Assembly: GCA_002398485.1 (NCBI GenBank)
Contig: DGYV01000014.1
Location: 6,549 to 22,543 of the forward strand
Source: Peptococcaceae bacterium UBA4997
GTDB lineage: Bacteria; Bacillota; Dehalobacteriia; UBA4068; UBA4997
Length of the DNA stretch: 15,995 nucleotides
Reading direction: 5' to 3'
Below, one piece after another: positions 1,214-9,033 of the stretch (position 1 is the first letter of the stretch; every line of letters begins with the position of its first letter). The notes under the pieces are model-generated. The model was not told where the DNA came from, made no database searches, and was given only the letters and a program-made list of their open reading frames with translations. A program made the translations under genes and the position numbers.

Positions 1214-2068
1214 CTAGGCCTGATTGGCAGAACCGAAAATACAAATTTTTTCCCTTACCAACTTGGTCATGGCTTCCCTGGCAGGGCCAAGCACCTTACG
1301 GGGGTCTATTTCTTTGGGATTCGCAGCCAGCACATCCTTAGCGGCCTTCATGAAAGCTTCTCTAACATTGGTATCTATATTGATTTTACGAACACCCAAG
1401 CTAACAGCTTCCTTTAGGGCCTCATCGGGCACACCCGAAGAACCGTGCAGTACTATAGGTATTTTTACCAGATTCCTAATGGCTTTCAAACGGGGCATAT
1501 CCAGCTTGGGCTCGCCCTTATAAACACCGTGAGCAGTGCCGATGGCTACAGCCAACGCATCCACACCTGTAGCCTGAACAAATTCCAAGGCTTCGGCGGG
1601 ATCGGTGAACAAGGCATCCCTATCGTGTACAAAAATATCGTCTTCCGTTCCGCCCAGCTTGCCCAATTCGCCTTCCACAGTAACACCTGCCGCGCGGGCG
1701 ACCTCCAGTACTTTATTGGTCAGGGTAATGTTTTCGGGCAGCGGATGTTTGGAACCGTCTATCATTACGGAAGTAAAACCGGCAGCTATACATTGTACAC
1801 ATTGTTCAAAACTGGTACCGTGATCCAAATGCAAAGCTACAGGCACATGAGTACGGCTTGCCGCCAAACGTGTCATAGCCACTATATAATCCAACCCTGC
1901 GTATTTGATGGCACCTTGGCTGGCCTGTACTATAACAGGTGAATTTTCCAAAGTTGCAGCATTGATGATGGCCTGTACTATTTCCATGTTGTTACAATTG
2001 AAAGCTCCTACTGCATAGCCACCCTTTTCCGCATTTTTTAGCAGCTCTGCCATAGTTACCATAGGCAT
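1214..2068 (-). CDS. fba: Class II fructose-1,6-bisphosphate aldolase
   Basis: Zinc-dependent cytosolic aldolase that interconverts fructose-1,6-bisphosphate with dihydroxyacetone phosphate and glyceraldehyde-3-phosphate in glycolysis and gluconeogenesis. The 284-residue length is normal for class II enzymes. Visible family residues are the catalytic Asp and zinc His in LHLDHG (D82, H83), the EGELG motif (E134), the zinc His in IGTAHGVYKG (H180), the zinc His in IVLHGSSG (H208), and the phosphate-binding KINIDTNVR (from 228). The start is supported by AAAGGGGGAT just upstream of ATG. It follows the zinc-ribbon gene by a short gap and probably shares its transcript, which ends at the hairpin at 1071-1098. 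Related GatY/KbaY tagatose-bisphosphate aldolases share this fold; the overall sequence looks like the Bacillota glycolytic Fba, so I prefer that name. Confidence 0.93.
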   Translation of the reverse strand: MPMVTMAELLKNAEKGGYAVGAFNCNNMEIVQAIINAATLENSPVIVQASQGAIKYAGLDYIVAMTRLAASRTHVPVALHLDHGTSFEQCVQCIAAGFTSVMIDGSKHPLPENITLTNKVLEVARAAGVTVEGELGKLGGTEDDIFVHDRDALFTDPAEALEFVQATGVDALAVAIGTAHGVYKGEPKLDMPRLKAIRNLVKIPIVLHGSSGVPDEALKEAVSLGVRKINIDTNVREAFMKAAKDVLAANPKEIDPRKVLGPAREAMTKLVREKICIFGSANQA

Positions 2069-3028: not shown

Positions 3029-4132
3029 ATGGTTTTGACACTTTCAGCACGGGTATTAAATATAGAGGATAAAGCAAAATTCAACAGATTTATGGAAACA
3101 CACCCCAAGGGCCATGTTCTGCAAAGCTGGGAATGGGGAGAAGTAAAAGCGGTTACGGGCTGGAAGCCCATTAGGGTAATGGTGGAGGATGAAAAAGGCA
3201 GCCCTGTTGCTGCCGTATCCCTTTTAAAACGCCGTTTGCCCGCAGGCATGGGAGCCATTTTTTATTCCCCCCGCGGCCCTGTTATAGATGCAGAAAACCT
3301 TGCGGCTTGGGATGTACTCACCCAAAAAGTGAAAGAGCTGGCTCACACAAACAAAGTTGTTTTTTGGAAATCGGACCCCGATGTAGATATAGATACGGAG
3401 CTGGGTACCACCTGGCAAAAAACCTTGCAAGCTTACGGCTTCAAAGCTGTGGATAAGGGCGAGGGCTTTGAAGGTGTACAGCCGCGCTATGTTTTCCGTT
3501 TAGATATACACAACGATTTAGAAACACTGCTTGCGGCCTGCCACCAGAAAACACGTTACAATATCCGTTTAGCGGCCAAAAAAGGTGTTAAAATAGTACG
3601 CAACCCGGGCAGGGAAGCTTTGCCCATTTTTTATAAAATTTTAGTGGAAACCGCCACGCGCGACCGTTTTTTGATTCGCCCTTATAGTTATTTTGAAGGC
3701 TTTTATGATAATCTTAAACCTGCAGGCCAGGCTGAGCTTTTCATGGCTTATTTGGATGATGAGCCCATTTCGGGCACGCTTGCCTTTAAAATGGGTAATA
3801 AGGCTTGGTATATTTACGGGGCTTCCAGCAACAAGCACCGCAATTATATGCCAAACTATCTTATCCAGTGGTCTATGATAGAATGGGCCAAGGAAAATAA
3901 CTGTACTATGTACGATTTCCGCGGCGTACCCGGCGATGTAGGCAAAGACCACCCTCTTTACGGACTTGTCAAATTCAAGCGTGGTTTTGGCGGTAAATAC
4001 ACCTGTTTCATTGGTGAGTACGATTTAGTATACAGGCCGTTCATGAATAAAATCTATAGCATTGCCGAACCTGCTTACCAAAAGTTGGTGCGGGTACTTA
4101 TTCGTTACAAAAAAAAGCTTAAAGGCAAGTAA
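3029..4132 (+). CDS. FemAB/MurM-family peptidoglycan bridge aminoacyltransferase
   Basis: Predicted to transfer an amino acid from aminoacyl-tRNA to the lipid II stem peptide at the cytoplasmic membrane face. The 367 residues show family hallmarks in both GNAT-like halves: LQSWEWGEVKAVTGWKP (31-47), FYSPRGPVID (78-87), KTRYNIRLAAKKGVKIV (174-190), and YIYGASS (261-267) followed by NYLIQWSMIEWAKE (276-289) and YDFRGVPG (295-302). No long coiled-coil arm, as in staphylococcal FemA, is evident. The ATG lies only two bases after GGGAGG; TTG at 3035, eight bases after it, is a plausible true start two codons later. The next gene follows after 17 bases and is alanine-racemase-like, so the pair forms a cell-wall operon. 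The amino acid transferred cannot be read from sequence. Confidence 0.88.
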   Translation: MVLTLSARVLNIEDKAKFNRFMETHPKGHVLQSWEWGEVKAVTGWKPIRVMVEDEKGSPVAAVSLLKRRLPAGMGAIFYSPRGPVIDAENLAAWDVLTQKVKELAHTNKVVFWKSDPDVDIDTELGTTWQKTLQAYGFKAVDKGEGFEGVQPRYVFRLDIHNDLETLLAACHQKTRYNIRLAAKKGVKIVRNPGREALPIFYKILVETATRDRFLIRPYSYFEGFYDNLKPAGQAELFMAYLDDEPISGTLAFKMGNKAWYIYGASSNKHRNYMPNYLIQWSMIEWAKENNCTMYDFRGVPGDVGKDHPLYGLVKFKRGFGGKYTCFIGEYDLVYRPFMNKIYSIAEPAYQKLVRVLIRYKKKLKGK

Positions 4133-4149: not shown

Positions 4150-5298
4150 ATGCTTAGTTATAACCGTTGGGTAGAGGTGGATTTGGATATTCTGGCTGCA
4201 AACTACCATGCCATGCGTGAATTTTTGCCGCATCAAACAGCCATTATGGCGGTTGTAAAAAACAATGCCTACGGACACGGCGCTGTGGAAACAGCTAAGC
4301 TTTTTCAAGCGGAAGGTGTGGCCATGCTTGCCGTAACTACCTTGGATGAAGGCGTAGAGCTGCGTTTGGCTGGCATAGAAATACCCATACTGGTTTTTGC
4401 TCCCGTTTTAAAGGATGAAGCCGATGCCTTCTTCAAGTGGGATCTTACCCCATCCATAGGTAATACGGAAGGCCTTTTTGCTTTAGCGGAAACCGCAGGT
4501 TCAAGGCAGATAAATTGTCATTTAAAAGTGAATACGGGCATGAGCCGCATGGGCATTGAACCAAACCACGCGGCGGAACTTGTAGATACGGCAACTCGTT
4601 TTGAAAATATACATATAACAGCTGTTTATTCCCATTTTGCCACAGCTTTGGAAGCGGATTTGAATTTTGCCAAAAAACAGCTTGCGGTTTTTCGCCATGT
4701 ACAGGAGGATATTCGTGCCTTAGGCGGTAAGGAGCTTGTTTACCACATTTGCAACAGTGCCGTGGCTTTGCGTTTGCCTGAAGCACGCCTACAGATGGTA
4801 AGGCTGGGTTCCGTATTATATGGACAATGCTCCTTCGCTGAGGAATTTGGCCTTAACATTCAAAACCCTTGGCAAGTTAAAGCCAAAGTAGTTGCAGTGC
4901 GTGATTTGGCAGCGGGCCAAAGCGTAGGCTACGGCAGGGATTTCACCGCCGCCAAACCTATGCGCATAGCTATTTTACCCATAGGTTACGGCGACGGCTT
5001 CGGCGCAGATATAAATGCCCGCCCCATAACCATCAACAGTGCTATTCGTACCATGGCCCGTTCAGTAGGCAAAGTTGCTTTGAACAAAGGTATGCGGGGC
5101 GTATATTTCGGAAATATTTTTTTACCTGTAGTGGGTCGTATAGCCATGCAGGCAACTGCCATAGATATAACAGGTACGGAAATAGCCTTGGGGGATATAG
5201 TGAACATACCCATGCGCCGTACTACCGCAAGCCCTAGGCTGCCCCATTTATACATACGCGGCGGGCAGCCCATAAAAGCCGTTTCTGTTTGTGAATAA
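4150..5298 (+). CDS. alr: Alanine-racemase-like PLP enzyme, divergent C-terminal domain
   Basis: Fold-type III PLP enzyme expected to interconvert L- and D-alanine for peptidoglycan. The 382 residues start after AAGGAGG with good spacing. The N-terminal TIM barrel is canonical: WVEVDL (7-12), AVVKNNAYGHG with PLP lysine K37, VNTGMSRMG (R133), YSHFATA (160-166), HICNSA (199-204), MVRLG (R218). The second catalytic base, Y261, is present in SVGYGRDF, and PIGYGDGF (277-284) follows. The C-terminal domain is abnormal. The usual GRxxMDQ motif reads GRIAMQA (Q334 for Asp). The tyrosine before RVPR in known racemases aligns with proline (SPRLPHLY, P362). Roughly 25 residues normally preceding that motif are missing. 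It is co-transcribed with the FemAB gene. It may be a working alanine racemase of a divergent subfamily or act on another amino acid. Confidence 0.85.
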   Translation: MLSYNRWVEVDLDILAANYHAMREFLPHQTAIMAVVKNNAYGHGAVETAKLFQAEGVAMLAVTTLDEGVELRLAGIEIPILVFAPVLKDEADAFFKWDLTPSIGNTEGLFALAETAGSRQINCHLKVNTGMSRMGIEPNHAAELVDTATRFENIHITAVYSHFATALEADLNFAKKQLAVFRHVQEDIRALGGKELVYHICNSAVALRLPEARLQMVRLGSVLYGQCSFAEEFGLNIQNPWQVKAKVVAVRDLAAGQSVGYGRDFTAAKPMRIAILPIGYGDGFGADINARPITINSAIRTMARSVGKVALNKGMRGVYFGNIFLPVVGRIAMQATAIDITGTEIALGDIVNIPMRRTTASPRLPHLYIRGGQPIKAVSVCE

Positions 5299-5606: not shown

Positions 5607-7208
5607 TTATTTATTGTTCTGCAAAGAGGCACCTATAAAATCCCTAAATAAGGGGTGCGGTTTTTGCGGACGGGATTTAAATTCAGGGTGGAACTGGCAG
5701 GCCAAAAACCAGGGGTGATCTTTCAACTCCACTATTTCCACGGTTTCGCCATCCTCCGTAACGCCGCTCATGATCATACCTTTATTTTCAAAACGCTCCC
5801 TATAAGCATTAATAAATTCATAACGGTGGCGGTGCCGCTCAAAAATAAGCTCGGAACCATAGGCCTTGGCCGCCAAACTACCGGGCTGCAAACGGCAGGG
5901 CAATGAACCTACCCTTAAGGTGCCGCCCAAACTACCGTTACAAATGGCGTTGTCCCAATATTGGAAAATGATTTCCGGGTTTTCGGTTTTGGTTTCGGGC
6001 ACTGTAGCATCTTTTATGCCTACAACCTCCCTGGCAAAATCCACCATGGCCATATGCATACCCATACCCATACCCAAAAACGGTATTTTATTTACCCTTG
6101 CATAACGCGCGGCCAGCATTTTGCCATAACCGCCGCGGATACCAAAGCCACTGGGCACGATAATGCCAGCCATGCCCGCCAACTCTTTTTCGTAACGTTC
6201 TTCCGTAAGTTTGGCCGCATCTATCCATTTGACATCCAGCTTTACATTATGATAAATAGCGGCATGGCGCAGAGATTCGCTTATGCTCAAATAAGCATCT
6301 GGCAACTGTACATATTTGCCTACCAGCGCTATGGTCATAGGTATTTCTACGCTCTTAGCTTTTTGGCAAAAATCCAGCCAATCCTCCACTGCAGCAGGAT
6401 TTAGCTTGATGTTAAGCTTGTCCGCCACTATCTTATCAAAACCTTGTTCCAAAAGCACCAAAGGTACTTCGTAAATGGTATCAACATCGGGCACCTGCAT
6501 CACCGCATCTTTATCTATATCACAAAATAAAGATATTTTATCTGTTATATCCTTGGCCAGCGGGAAAACTGAACGGCAGATGATTATATCGGGCTGAATA
6601 CCTATACTGCGTAATTCCTTGACGCTGTGCTGAGTAGGCTTGGTTTTGGCTTCGCCTGCCGCTTTTATGTAAGGCACCAAGGTTACATGCACAAAAAGTG
6701 TATTTTCTTTGCCCAAATCACGCCTTAACTGGCGGATCGTCTCCAAATAAGGCAGGGATTCTATATCCCCAACAGTACCGCCTATTTCAGTTATCAAAAC
6801 ATCCAAGTCCTGCTCACGGGCAAGGCGAGTCATTGCCGATTTTACTTCATTAGTTATATGGGGTATAACCTGTACGGTAACACCATCATAAAAACCGCTG
6901 CGCTCCTTATCCAAAACAGAGCGGTAAATTTTACCCATCGTAATTGAAGAATAACGGGTCAAATTGATATCCACAAACCTTTCATAATGCCCCAAGTCCA
7001 GGTCGGTTTCTGCGCCGTCATCGGTTACAAAAACCTCACCATGCTGATAAGGTGTCATGGTCCCGGGATCGGGATTGATATAGGGGTCAAACTTTTGAAT
7101 AGCTACTTTTAATCCCCTGCTTTTCAAAAGCCGCCCTAATGACGCAGCCGTAATACCTTTCCCCAGTGATGAAACCACACCGCCTGTTACAAACACAAAT
7201 TTAGTCAT
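5607..7208 (-). CDS. pyrG: CTP synthase lacking the glutaminase nucleophile cysteine
   Basis: Makes CTP from UTP, ATP and an amino donor; last step of pyrimidine nucleotide synthesis. The ATG at 7208 is preceded by GGAGAGG at about nine bases; an in-frame TTG six codons upstream has no such support. The 533 residues are full length. The synthase domain is canonical: P-loop GGVVSSLGKG (9-18), DPYINPDPGTMTPYQHGEVF (41-60), DLDLGHYERF (69-78), EIGGTVGDIES (141-151), KTKPTQHSV (188-196). The class I glutamine amidotransferase domain (from about 292) keeps ERHRHRYEF (457-465) and the His and Glu of QFHPEF (H507, E509). However, the nucleophile motif, normally FLGICLGMQ, reads FLGMGMGMH, with G381 at the cysteine position. 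The oxyanion loop reads VPSGFGIRGGYG rather than VPGGFGxRGVEG. The synthase half is expected to work with free ammonia. It follows argS. Confidence 0.94.
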   Translation of the reverse strand: MTKFVFVTGGVVSSLGKGITAASLGRLLKSRGLKVAIQKFDPYINPDPGTMTPYQHGEVFVTDDGAETDLDLGHYERFVDINLTRYSSITMGKIYRSVLDKERSGFYDGVTVQVIPHITNEVKSAMTRLAREQDLDVLITEIGGTVGDIESLPYLETIRQLRRDLGKENTLFVHVTLVPYIKAAGEAKTKPTQHSVKELRSIGIQPDIIICRSVFPLAKDITDKISLFCDIDKDAVMQVPDVDTIYEVPLVLLEQGFDKIVADKLNIKLNPAAVEDWLDFCQKAKSVEIPMTIALVGKYVQLPDAYLSISESLRHAAIYHNVKLDVKWIDAAKLTEERYEKELAGMAGIIVPSGFGIRGGYGKMLAARYARVNKIPFLGMGMGMHMAMVDFAREVVGIKDATVPETKTENPEIIFQYWDNAICNGSLGGTLRVGSLPCRLQPGSLAAKAYGSELIFERHRHRYEFINAYRERFENKGMIMSGVTEDGETVEIVELKDHPWFLACQFHPEFKSRPQKPHPLFRDFIGASLQNNK

Positions 7209-7350: not shown

Positions 7351-9033
7351 TTACATATGTGCAGGTGAGGCAACTCCTATAAGGGTAAGCGCGCGAGCAA
7401 TGCAAAGCGCCGAGGCCTTGCAAAGTGCCAGCCTTGCTATTTGCAGATCCTTTTCCACACCCAAAACCCTGCAATTACCATAAAAAGCATGGAAAATACC
7501 CGCCAGATCCAAGGCATACACGGGTAGCCTATGCGGCTCCAAATTCAGCGCGGCATAAGCGATTTCATCCGGCAGATCCAAAAGCTTGCGTATCAGTATA
7601 TCTTCACTTTCCTCTTTAAGAAGATCAAATTTTATTTCCTTAAGATTAGGCAGCTTAATGCCCTGTTCTTCAGCTTGTGCCAAAATGCTGCAAATACGCG
7701 CATGCGCATACTGTACATAATAAACAGGGTTATCGGAGCTTTCACTTTTTGCCAAATCCAAATCAAAGTCCATTTGGCTGTCGGCACTGCGCATGGCAAA
7801 AAAGAAGCGCGCGGCATCCACGCCTACCTCATCCATCAATTCCTCCAGCGTTACATAAGTGCCCGCCCTTTTGGACATCCGCATGATTTCGCCGCCTTGA
7901 AACAGGCGCACTAACTGCATCAAAATAACATCTAGGTTTTTAGAGTCATAACCCAAAGCATCTACACCCGCTTTCAGTCTGGCCACATGGCCGTGATGAT
8001 CCGCCCCCCAAATGTTTATTACCTGTTCAAAACCGCGTTCGAATTTATTTTTATGGTAAGCTATATCCGCCGCATAATAAGTTGGAATACCGTTGGCACG
8101 TACCAAAACCTCTGCCTTTTCAGCGCCAAAACTATCAGCCTTGAACCACAAGGCACCTTCTTTTTCCTCTATATAGCCCTTATCAGCCAGTTCCTCCACC
8201 ACTTCGCTTACAGCACCCGAATCATGCAGGGATTGCTCACTGAACCAAACATCGTAATTTACACCAAAACGCTCAAGCCCCGCTTTGATGGCAGTGATTT
8301 TTTTATCCAGTGCATAACGGGTAAATACTTCACGCCTTAGATCCGAGGCCGTATTAAGGTATTTATCGCCAAATTCTTTTATAAAAGCATGCATGGTGCG
8401 CTGAACATCTTCCCCATGATAGCCATCTTCAGGGAAGGGCACATTTTCACCCAATTCCTGCAAATAACGAGCCTCTAAAGAAAGACCGAATTTTTCAATT
8501 TGATTACCTGCATCATTCACATAAAATTCCCGTTCCACCTCATAGCCGGCCGCTTGCATAACAGATGCCAGGCTATCACCTATGGCAGCGCCGCGCGCAT
8601 TGCCCATATGCAATTCACCTGTAGGGTTGGCACTTACAAATTCTACTTGTACCTTTTTGCCTTTACCGGCATTGGAATCACCGTAATGTTCGCCTTCCAG
8701 TAAAATAGCCGTTAAACCAGGGTTGAGCCAACCTGCAGACATGGTAAAATTAATAAAACCTGCGCCTGCTACTTCTGCTTTTTCGGCCAGGGTATCACTG
8801 AGATCCAAATGATTTATCAAAATTTCGCCTATTTTGCGAGGATTCATGTGCGCCTGCTTTGCCAAAAGCATAGCCAAATTACCCGCAAAATCGCCATGGC
8901 TGCGTTCCCTGGGAACTTCAATAACGAAATCAGGCAGTATATCAAAGCTTATTTCAGCATCATTCTTAGCTAAAATTGCTGCCTGTTTCAGTTTTTCGTA
9001 AAGATTTTCCTTAATTTCCTTAATCCAACTCAT
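7351..9033 (-). CDS. argS: Arginyl-tRNA synthetase
   Basis: Class I aminoacyl-tRNA synthetase that charges tRNA-Arg in the cytosol. The 560 residues match the usual length. The N-terminal Arg-tRNA-synthetase add-on domain (about 1-100, with PRERSHGDFAGNLAM at 41-55) precedes the Rossmann catalytic core, whose HIGH-type motif is ANPTGELHMGNARGA (135-149). Further core motifs are REFYVNDAGNQ (168-178), INIWGADHHGH (339-349) and the KMSK-type loop MRMSKRAGTYV (384-394). A helical DALR anticodon-binding domain closes the protein, ending in SPAHM. The start is fixed by GGAGGAAACT directly before ATG. An extended -10 promoter lies 40 bases upstream and pyrG follows downstream on the same strand. 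Nothing appears missing. Confidence 0.96.
   Translation of the reverse strand: MSWIKEIKENLYEKLKQAAILAKNDAEISFDILPDFVIEVPRERSHGDFAGNLAMLLAKQAHMNPRKIGEILINHLDLSDTLAEKAEVAGAGFINFTMSAGWLNPGLTAILLEGEHYGDSNAGKGKKVQVEFVSANPTGELHMGNARGAAIGDSLASVMQAAGYEVEREFYVNDAGNQIEKFGLSLEARYLQELGENVPFPEDGYHGEDVQRTMHAFIKEFGDKYLNTASDLRREVFTRYALDKKITAIKAGLERFGVNYDVWFSEQSLHDSGAVSEVVEELADKGYIEEKEGALWFKADSFGAEKAEVLVRANGIPTYYAADIAYHKNKFERGFEQVINIWGADHHGHVARLKAGVDALGYDSKNLDVILMQLVRLFQGGEIMRMSKRAGTYVTLEELMDEVGVDAARFFFAMRSADSQMDFDLDLAKSESSDNPVYYVQYAHARICSILAQAEEQGIKLPNLKEIKFDLLKEESEDILIRKLLDLPDEIAYAALNLEPHRLPVYALDLAGIFHAFYGNCRVLGVEKDLQIARLALCKASALCIARALTLIGVASPAHM

Follow-up and report, generated by a model that had tools for sequence, protein, structure and literature searches.

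The pyrG_a locus and its active-site residues

The window (the whole stretch of DNA analysed here, 15,995 nucleotides from Peptococcaceae bacterium UBA4997) belongs to contig C69 of a draft genome that totals 1.71 Mb over 72 contigs and is 81% complete. Its minus strand carries pyrG_a (5607..7208), a gene with an ATG start encoding a CTP synthase-like protein of 533 amino acids, as judged by the open reading frame, alignment, profile and fold model. The PyrG family of CTP synthases is described by TIGR00337 and by the domain pair PF06418 and PF00117; in a profile search PyrG_a matched TIGR00337, named 'glutamine hydrolyzing CTP synthase', over the whole protein with 754 bits against a cut-off of 463. 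The synthase (amidoligase) domain comprises residues 1–265 (6414..7208, minus strand) and the glutaminase (GATase) domain residues 291–533 (5610..6338, minus strand). Upstream lies argS (7351..9033, minus strand), with 62–67% identity in the relatives that carry a Cys-less gene. On the other side, neighbourhood comparison identified alr (alanine racemase; 4150..5298, plus strand), a femX-like gene of the FemAB type (3029..4132, plus strand) and, at the end of the conserved cluster, fba (class II aldolase; 1214..2068, minus strand); alr and femX are reversed in orientation compared to relatives.

PyrG_a aligns end to end with the solved chain of E. coli CTP synthase, and this alignment agrees with the earlier note in placing Gly381 (codon GGT; 6066..6068, minus strand) in the column of the E. 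coli nucleophile Cys379. As the note had also read, residues 379–384 are encoded by three GGTATG hexamers (6057..6074, minus strand; CATACC three times on the plus strand), so that the nucleophile-elbow motif is GMGMGM in place of GICLGM. The changes extend beyond this motif: Ser353 (6150..6152, minus strand) occupies the column of the oxyanion-hole Gly351, which is Gly in all 178 Cys-bearing proteins of our residue table, and His385 (6054..6056, minus strand) that of Gln383, which is Gln in 98% of them. These 178 proteins bear Cys by definition, and some are near-identical to each other. The note's further statement that the frame is open and that the synthase half and the remaining triad are intact is borne out: the frame (7208..5607, minus strand) has no internal stop, and His507-Pro-Glu509 (5682..5690, minus strand) is retained in both the residue table and the same E. 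coli alignment, where His507 pairs with His515 and Glu509 with Glu517. PyrG_a also retains the equivalents of E. coli Lys18, Lys40, Asp72, Glu140, Asp147, Glu149, Lys187, Lys189, Gln192 and Lys223, which we take to form the ATP, UTP and Mg site. Judged from the residues lost, it is almost certain that PyrG_a cannot hydrolyse glutamine, since formation of the glutamyl thioester requires the Cys.

Of 163 database proteins, made up of the query and of search matches selected because they resemble it or Cys-less proteins, 152 have Cys in the nucleophile column, as do all 80 loci from named genomes. An 81%-complete draft genome and a short hexamer run might suggest that a low-complexity stretch had been missequenced or misassembled, but a second database record (P0002), 99% identical to the PyrG of the window, has the same motif, 13 related genomes also lack the Cys, and further GATase residues are changed as well. 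An error is thus very unlikely, to the point of being negligible. The suggestion that slippage or local duplication of the hexamer helped to replace the motif did not hold up: relatives read GIGMGM, AVGMGM, ALGMGM or AIGMGM at the same length and with other codons, so point substitutions suffice. GGT accounts for 111 of the 270 Gly codons across 11 genes of the window, and the hexamer repeat is by itself unremarkable. Loss of the glutaminase could also free the domain interface for another amine donor or nucleotide substrate, giving a CTP-like product not made from NH3 and UTP, and the sequence is compatible with this; the unchanged UTP/CTP-site residues and the lack of a biosynthetic cluster around pyrG_a nevertheless make such a role most improbable.

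Loss of the nucleophile across the class

To place pyrG_a among its relatives we searched 43 genomes of the class and read their pyrG genes. The PyrG proteins of G037 and G041 are, over the last 500 residues, those of the database entries for Dehalobacterium formicoaceticum and Candidatus Formimonas warabiya, which identifies the class as that of Dehalobacterium (Peptococcaceae at NCBI). A pyrG gene adjoins argS and femX-alr in families f1 (10 genomes including that of the window), f4 (3) and f5 (1), and the Cys is missing from all 14 of these operonic genes, replaced by Gly in f1 and f5 and by Asn in f4. On whether the Gly is fixed in relatives, a point the earlier note had raised, the absence of Cys holds throughout but the replacing residue varies. 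All 14 genes are full-length open frames except that of G007, which is split over two contigs with the Cys position still readable. In Moorella and in the class sister G036, a pyrG that does encode the Cys sits among these same neighbours, indicating that pyrG_a is the ancestral gene in its ancestral place.

Elsewhere in the class the Cys is usually kept. In families f2 and f3, pyrG was found in 13 of 21 genomes, without adjoining argS or femX; 11 of these genes encode Cys, that of G028 encodes Gly and that of G022 is very divergent. The eight genomes outside the order gave seven pyrG matches, all with Cys. The PyrG of G038, read by tblastn and excluded from the tree and the residue table, has Cys. 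In total, 18 class members keep the Cys in the sole copy found.

Several unusual proteins were encountered in the course of the survey. The sole pyrG found in G022 (89% complete) encodes a full-length PyrG-like protein (L070:984-2552), 29% identical to that of the window, without the P-loop and without the Cys motif; from its sequence it appears to be a former CTP synthase with neither activity left. The sole pyrG found in G028 (L066; genome 85% complete) and database protein P0124, which belong to another tree group, have Gly for Cys and Asn for the triad His, and the GuaA of G028 also lacks its GATase domain. A Tissierella-like PyrG (P0102, Cys to Ala) and a Dehalobacterium-like PyrG (P0028, Cys to Ser) are, by their sequences, independent losses. 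P0114 is a Cys-bearing CTP synthase of 910 amino acids fused to a FemAB protein, the genes for which adjoin in the pyrG_a cluster; either the fusion is genuine or a stop codon has been lost and read through, and the protein was trimmed to 540 residues for the residue table.

A 69-row tree groups the operonic Cys-less proteins with the metagenomic P0003, P0004, P0040 and P0125 and separates them from the other 50 rows (support 100/97), and this operonic group persists when only the synthase domain is used and 8 redundant rows are excluded (83/76). P0028 (Ser), P0102 (Ala) and G028/P0124 (Gly) fall elsewhere, and the tree needs four changes in all. The nucleophile was probably lost before families f1, f4 and f5 split.

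A second pyrG beside guaA

A second gene, pyrG_b, was seen in 13 of the 14 genomes with an operonic Cys-less gene, and in all 10 cases where the position is readable it encodes Cys. No second pyrG was found in G002, and the second-pyrG fragments of G007 and G015 are 95–97% identical to the second copies of sister species. In the genome of the window contig C37 breaks off within this gene, leaving its C-terminal 29 residues only. This piece is 66% identical to the PyrG of the window over 29 residues, compared to 84% over 25 residues and 73% over 30 residues (G006) for second copies, and it is followed by guaA, as is the second copy in G006, G001, G013 and G012. The second copy is probably present in this genome as a complete, normal enzyme. 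At 9650-11092 of L032, on C37, several long stretches of N interrupt and flank guaA and lie just downstream of the second pyrG, indicating that this region was scaffolded and not fully sequenced. A second pyrG, which the earlier note had proposed to look for and would have taken, if intact, as refuting its reading, was thus found in 12 of 13 relatives and as an end piece in the genome itself; it argues against any dependence of the cell on ammonia for making CTP and leaves the claim about the protein unaffected.

In the 69-row tree the second copies cluster with the f2/f3 genes in a separate group (98/93), and the trees set PyrG_b apart from the operonic Cys-less group. An AU test failed to reject a single clade uniting the two groups (p 0.325), the branches being long, and pyrG_b may have arisen by transfer or by an old duplication.

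Selection, predicted fold and domain asymmetry

We next asked how the Cys-less genes have been maintained. Estimated with YN00, omega was 0.024–0.084 in six Cys-less pairs, compared to 0.031–0.054 in four Cys-bearing pairs; for the GATase part alone it was 0.037–0.127 and 0.037–0.074, respectively. The gene of the window is in none of the pairs, and 3 of the 13 pairs gave no whole-gene value. The Cys-less relatives are under strong purifying selection, which points to a kept, glutaminase-dead isozyme, and selection maintains even the inactive GATase domain. A redundant copy slowly decaying since the second pyrG arrived would fit the stepwise order of loss, with the Cys gone in all, then the His or the oxyanion Gly, then Asp72 in genus g2; with open full-length frames, a preserved neighbourhood and omega values this low, we consider such plain decay improbable. 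An AlphaFold2 model of PyrG_a built from 16 sequences had a mean pLDDT of 83.2 and a pTM of 0.84 (residues 46–56 and 422–428 fall under 50), and among PDB structures it best matches CTP synthases, along its entire length and at a TM of about 0.8–0.9.

The accumulated changes are uneven between the domains. Using 152 reference proteins, from which the 24 tested class members and two more were excluded, we counted changes at near-invariant columns: PyrG_a of the window is changed at 4 of the 134 in the synthase domain and at 12 of the 74 in the GATase domain (Fisher p 0.0016). The other operonic Cys-less proteins have 5–18 synthase and 11–23 GATase changes, the 24 Cys-bearing class members 0–18 and 0–7, and three stray Cys-less proteins 0–5 and 2–5. 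The asymmetry is not significant in P0004 (p 0.083), P0124 (p 0.33) and P0102 (p 0.62). The GATase losses fall in PyrG_a and the synthase changes in PyrG_b (in f4, PyrG_a has 17 in the GATase and 5 in the synthase domain, PyrG_b 3 and 18), as would be expected if labour were divided in a mixed complex, PyrG_b freeing ammonia from glutamine and PyrG_a using it. However, the synthase catalytic residues checked in PyrG_b are retained, so it needs no partner, single copies in f2 reach up to 15 synthase changes, and PyrG_a of genus g2 is damaged on both sides; we consider a division of this kind unlikely.

The L4 loop (E. coli Arg105, Asp107, Leu109) links the hydrolysis of glutamine with the synthase reaction, and at first it seemed notable that it had decayed along with the glutaminase. 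We do not count this as evidence: the loop varies in Cys-bearing proteins too, with Arg105 present in 60% and Leu109 in 83% of the 178, and it is altered in PyrG_b of G006, G012 and G013.

Genus g2, which belongs to the same family as the window, differs in the synthase half. Its copies have Arg for Lys40 and Ala for the Mg-binding Asp72, and they retain the UTP/CTP-site residues checked. The f4 and f5 copies, like that of the window, retain the whole synthase site; the triad His is missing in f4 and f5 as well as in P0040 and P0124. Read from the alignment, the g2 losses are the strongest result against one common function. Since this sister genus also lost Asp72, the main rival to an ammonia-using enzyme is a regulatory or structural partner that would join PyrG_b tetramers or filaments, bind UTP or CTP with little or no turnover and tune PyrG_b. 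Conservation of a dead GATase domain would agree with such a role, as would the state of PyrG_b, whose synthase half is, judging by sequence distances, fast-changing in two-copy genomes (synthase/GATase distance ratio 0.80–0.95, compared to 0.54 ± 0.06 in 152 database proteins). The ratio is also shifted in ten single-copy relatives of PyrG_b (0.60–0.81), however, and the whole synthase site is retained in the copies of the window, f4 and f5. We regard a regulatory role as possible but doubtful.

Other amidotransferases of the class

The GuaA of the window genome keeps its Cys (ICYGMQ), as do three more class-I amidotransferases with the motifs GTCAG, GVCGG and GICRG, presumably PdxT-, CobQ- and C26-like, respectively; carA was not found in this genome, which is incomplete (81%). 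Beside the second pyrG, guaA is reduced in several other genomes. In G012 and G017 it has a short GATase part without the Cys motif, in G003 and G020 that part is absent, and in G009 it is likewise absent within its contig; G012, G003 and G020 each encode an additional GuaA of full length that has GICYG. The short Cys-less remnant ('MKQDMIVILDLGS...') precedes an intact synthetase part (G012 L034:3789-5114, G017 L035:1-3120), and remnants of the same type were seen in L250 (G035), L257 (G039) and L258 (G037, which by its PyrG is Dehalobacterium formicoaceticum). GuaA proteins of about 330–365 amino acids without the GATase domain are encoded at L044 (G003), L064 (G020), L051 (G009), L252 (G040), L255 (G029) and L256 (G028). 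Archaea have GMP synthetases whose glutaminase is a separate subunit, and a partner may similarly feed the short GuaA.

Across the class, the GuaA search gave 44 matches in 33 of 43 genomes. The motif is present in 21 and missing from 8 of the 30 loci read, the remaining one being too short to tell, such that 8 of 29 judged loci (in G012, G017, G028, G029, G035, G037, G039 and G040) lack it. For CarA there were 24 matches in 23 of 43 genomes, and 20 of the 22 readable ones have the Cys. The two exceptions are the second CarA of G003 (L194/L213, contig C14; Cys to Gly, His to Tyr), the other CarA of that genome having its Cys, and the CarA of G022 (L227; Cys to Ser). The CarA of G039 (L205) keeps the Cys with Tyr in place of His. 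We tentatively suggest that the Dehalobacterium class may have a parallel, ammonia-fed set of nucleotide amidotransferases, some beside glutamine-using copies, able to draw nitrogen from glutamine or free ammonia. Such a set would comprise a glutaminase-dead CTP synthase, a GMP synthetase whose GATase domain is missing or ruined and, in individual genomes only, a CarA without the Cys.

A possible ammonia-dependent isozyme

Collectively, these results suggest the following. pyrG_a is the CTP synthase gene in its ancestral position (argS-pyrG-femX-alr-fba); it lost the glutaminase nucleophile in one order of the Dehalobacterium class and was retained beside a second, complete CTP synthase, pyrG_b, adjoining guaA. 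PyrG_a would phosphorylate UTP with ATP and then aminate it with free ammonia, acting as an ammonia-dependent isozyme beside the glutamine-using copy. CTP synthase phosphorylates UTP and receives NH3 tunnelled from the GATase domain, and exogenous NH3 is usable, according to the review PMC9138612; the E. coli G352P variant described there has no glutamine-dependent activity and is almost fully active with NH4Cl. Given the intact synthase site of PyrG_a, ammonia-dependent CTP formation is the simplest prediction, and the glutaminase-less GuaA and Cys-less CarA proteins of the same class favour it. Four points weigh against this reading: the g2 copy, without Lys40 and Asp72, may not make CTP; simple ammonia use needs no selection on a dead GATase domain (omega 0.037–0.127); a normal copy makes a second CTP synthase unnecessary; and the GuaA of the window genome has its Cys. 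On balance, an ammonia-dependent CTP synthase isozyme appears the most likely identity of PyrG_a, a view we hold with moderate confidence. The inference of the earlier note that the enzyme uses ammonia is in this respect supported, the nucleophile being missing, glutamine use lost and ammonia the likeliest donor; the setting beside a second pyrG was not foreseen there.

CTP synthase is, to our knowledge, treated as glutamine-dependent throughout life, and in our limited search of open-access PMC papers neither titles nor abstracts described a naturally occurring CTP synthase without the Cys. The relatives have a conserved glutaminase-dead paralogue of CTP synthase beside a normal copy, and the window genome probably does too. 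A natural copy with a dead GATase domain lets one ask why cells pay glutamine, and not ammonia, for CTP; further questions are what the dead domain is kept for and whether anaerobes of ammonium-rich habitats use ammonia for nucleotide synthesis. The curated model still names pyrG_a 'glutamine hydrolyzing', and such losses therefore go unseen.

Comparison with known systems

PyrG_a resembles the PyrG family (TIGR00337) in whole-length homology, fold, synthase active site and gene neighbourhood, and differs from it in lacking the catalytic Cys and the first oxyanion Gly and in having, in relatives, an ordinary copy alongside. Engineered variants of E. coli Cys379 are GATase-dead CTP synthases. 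Another laboratory parallel is G352P, in which glutamine use is abolished, the synthase is untouched and, by the account in PMC9138612, ammonia activity is kept; that enzyme carries one engineered change, whereas PyrG_a has a natural, long-kept set.

In carbamoyl phosphate synthetase I (CPS I) the glutaminase Cys is replaced. PyrG_a shares with CPS I, as predicted from its residues, an inactive glutaminase and an intact synthase site, and 13 of 14 genomes have a second pyrG alongside, which encodes Cys in all 10 readable cases; that of the window contributes the C-terminal end only. If our preferred explanation holds, both are ammonia isozymes beside glutamine isozymes, though CPS I belongs to another enzyme family, needs N-acetylglutamate and serves the urea cycle (PMC6022934). 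The NAD synthetases show the same ammonia/glutamine split, between single-domain and two-domain forms in one bacterial amidotransferase family (PMC3376133). In their ammonia form the glutaminase domain is absent, whereas in PyrG_a it is present, folded by prediction and, to judge by its residues, dead.
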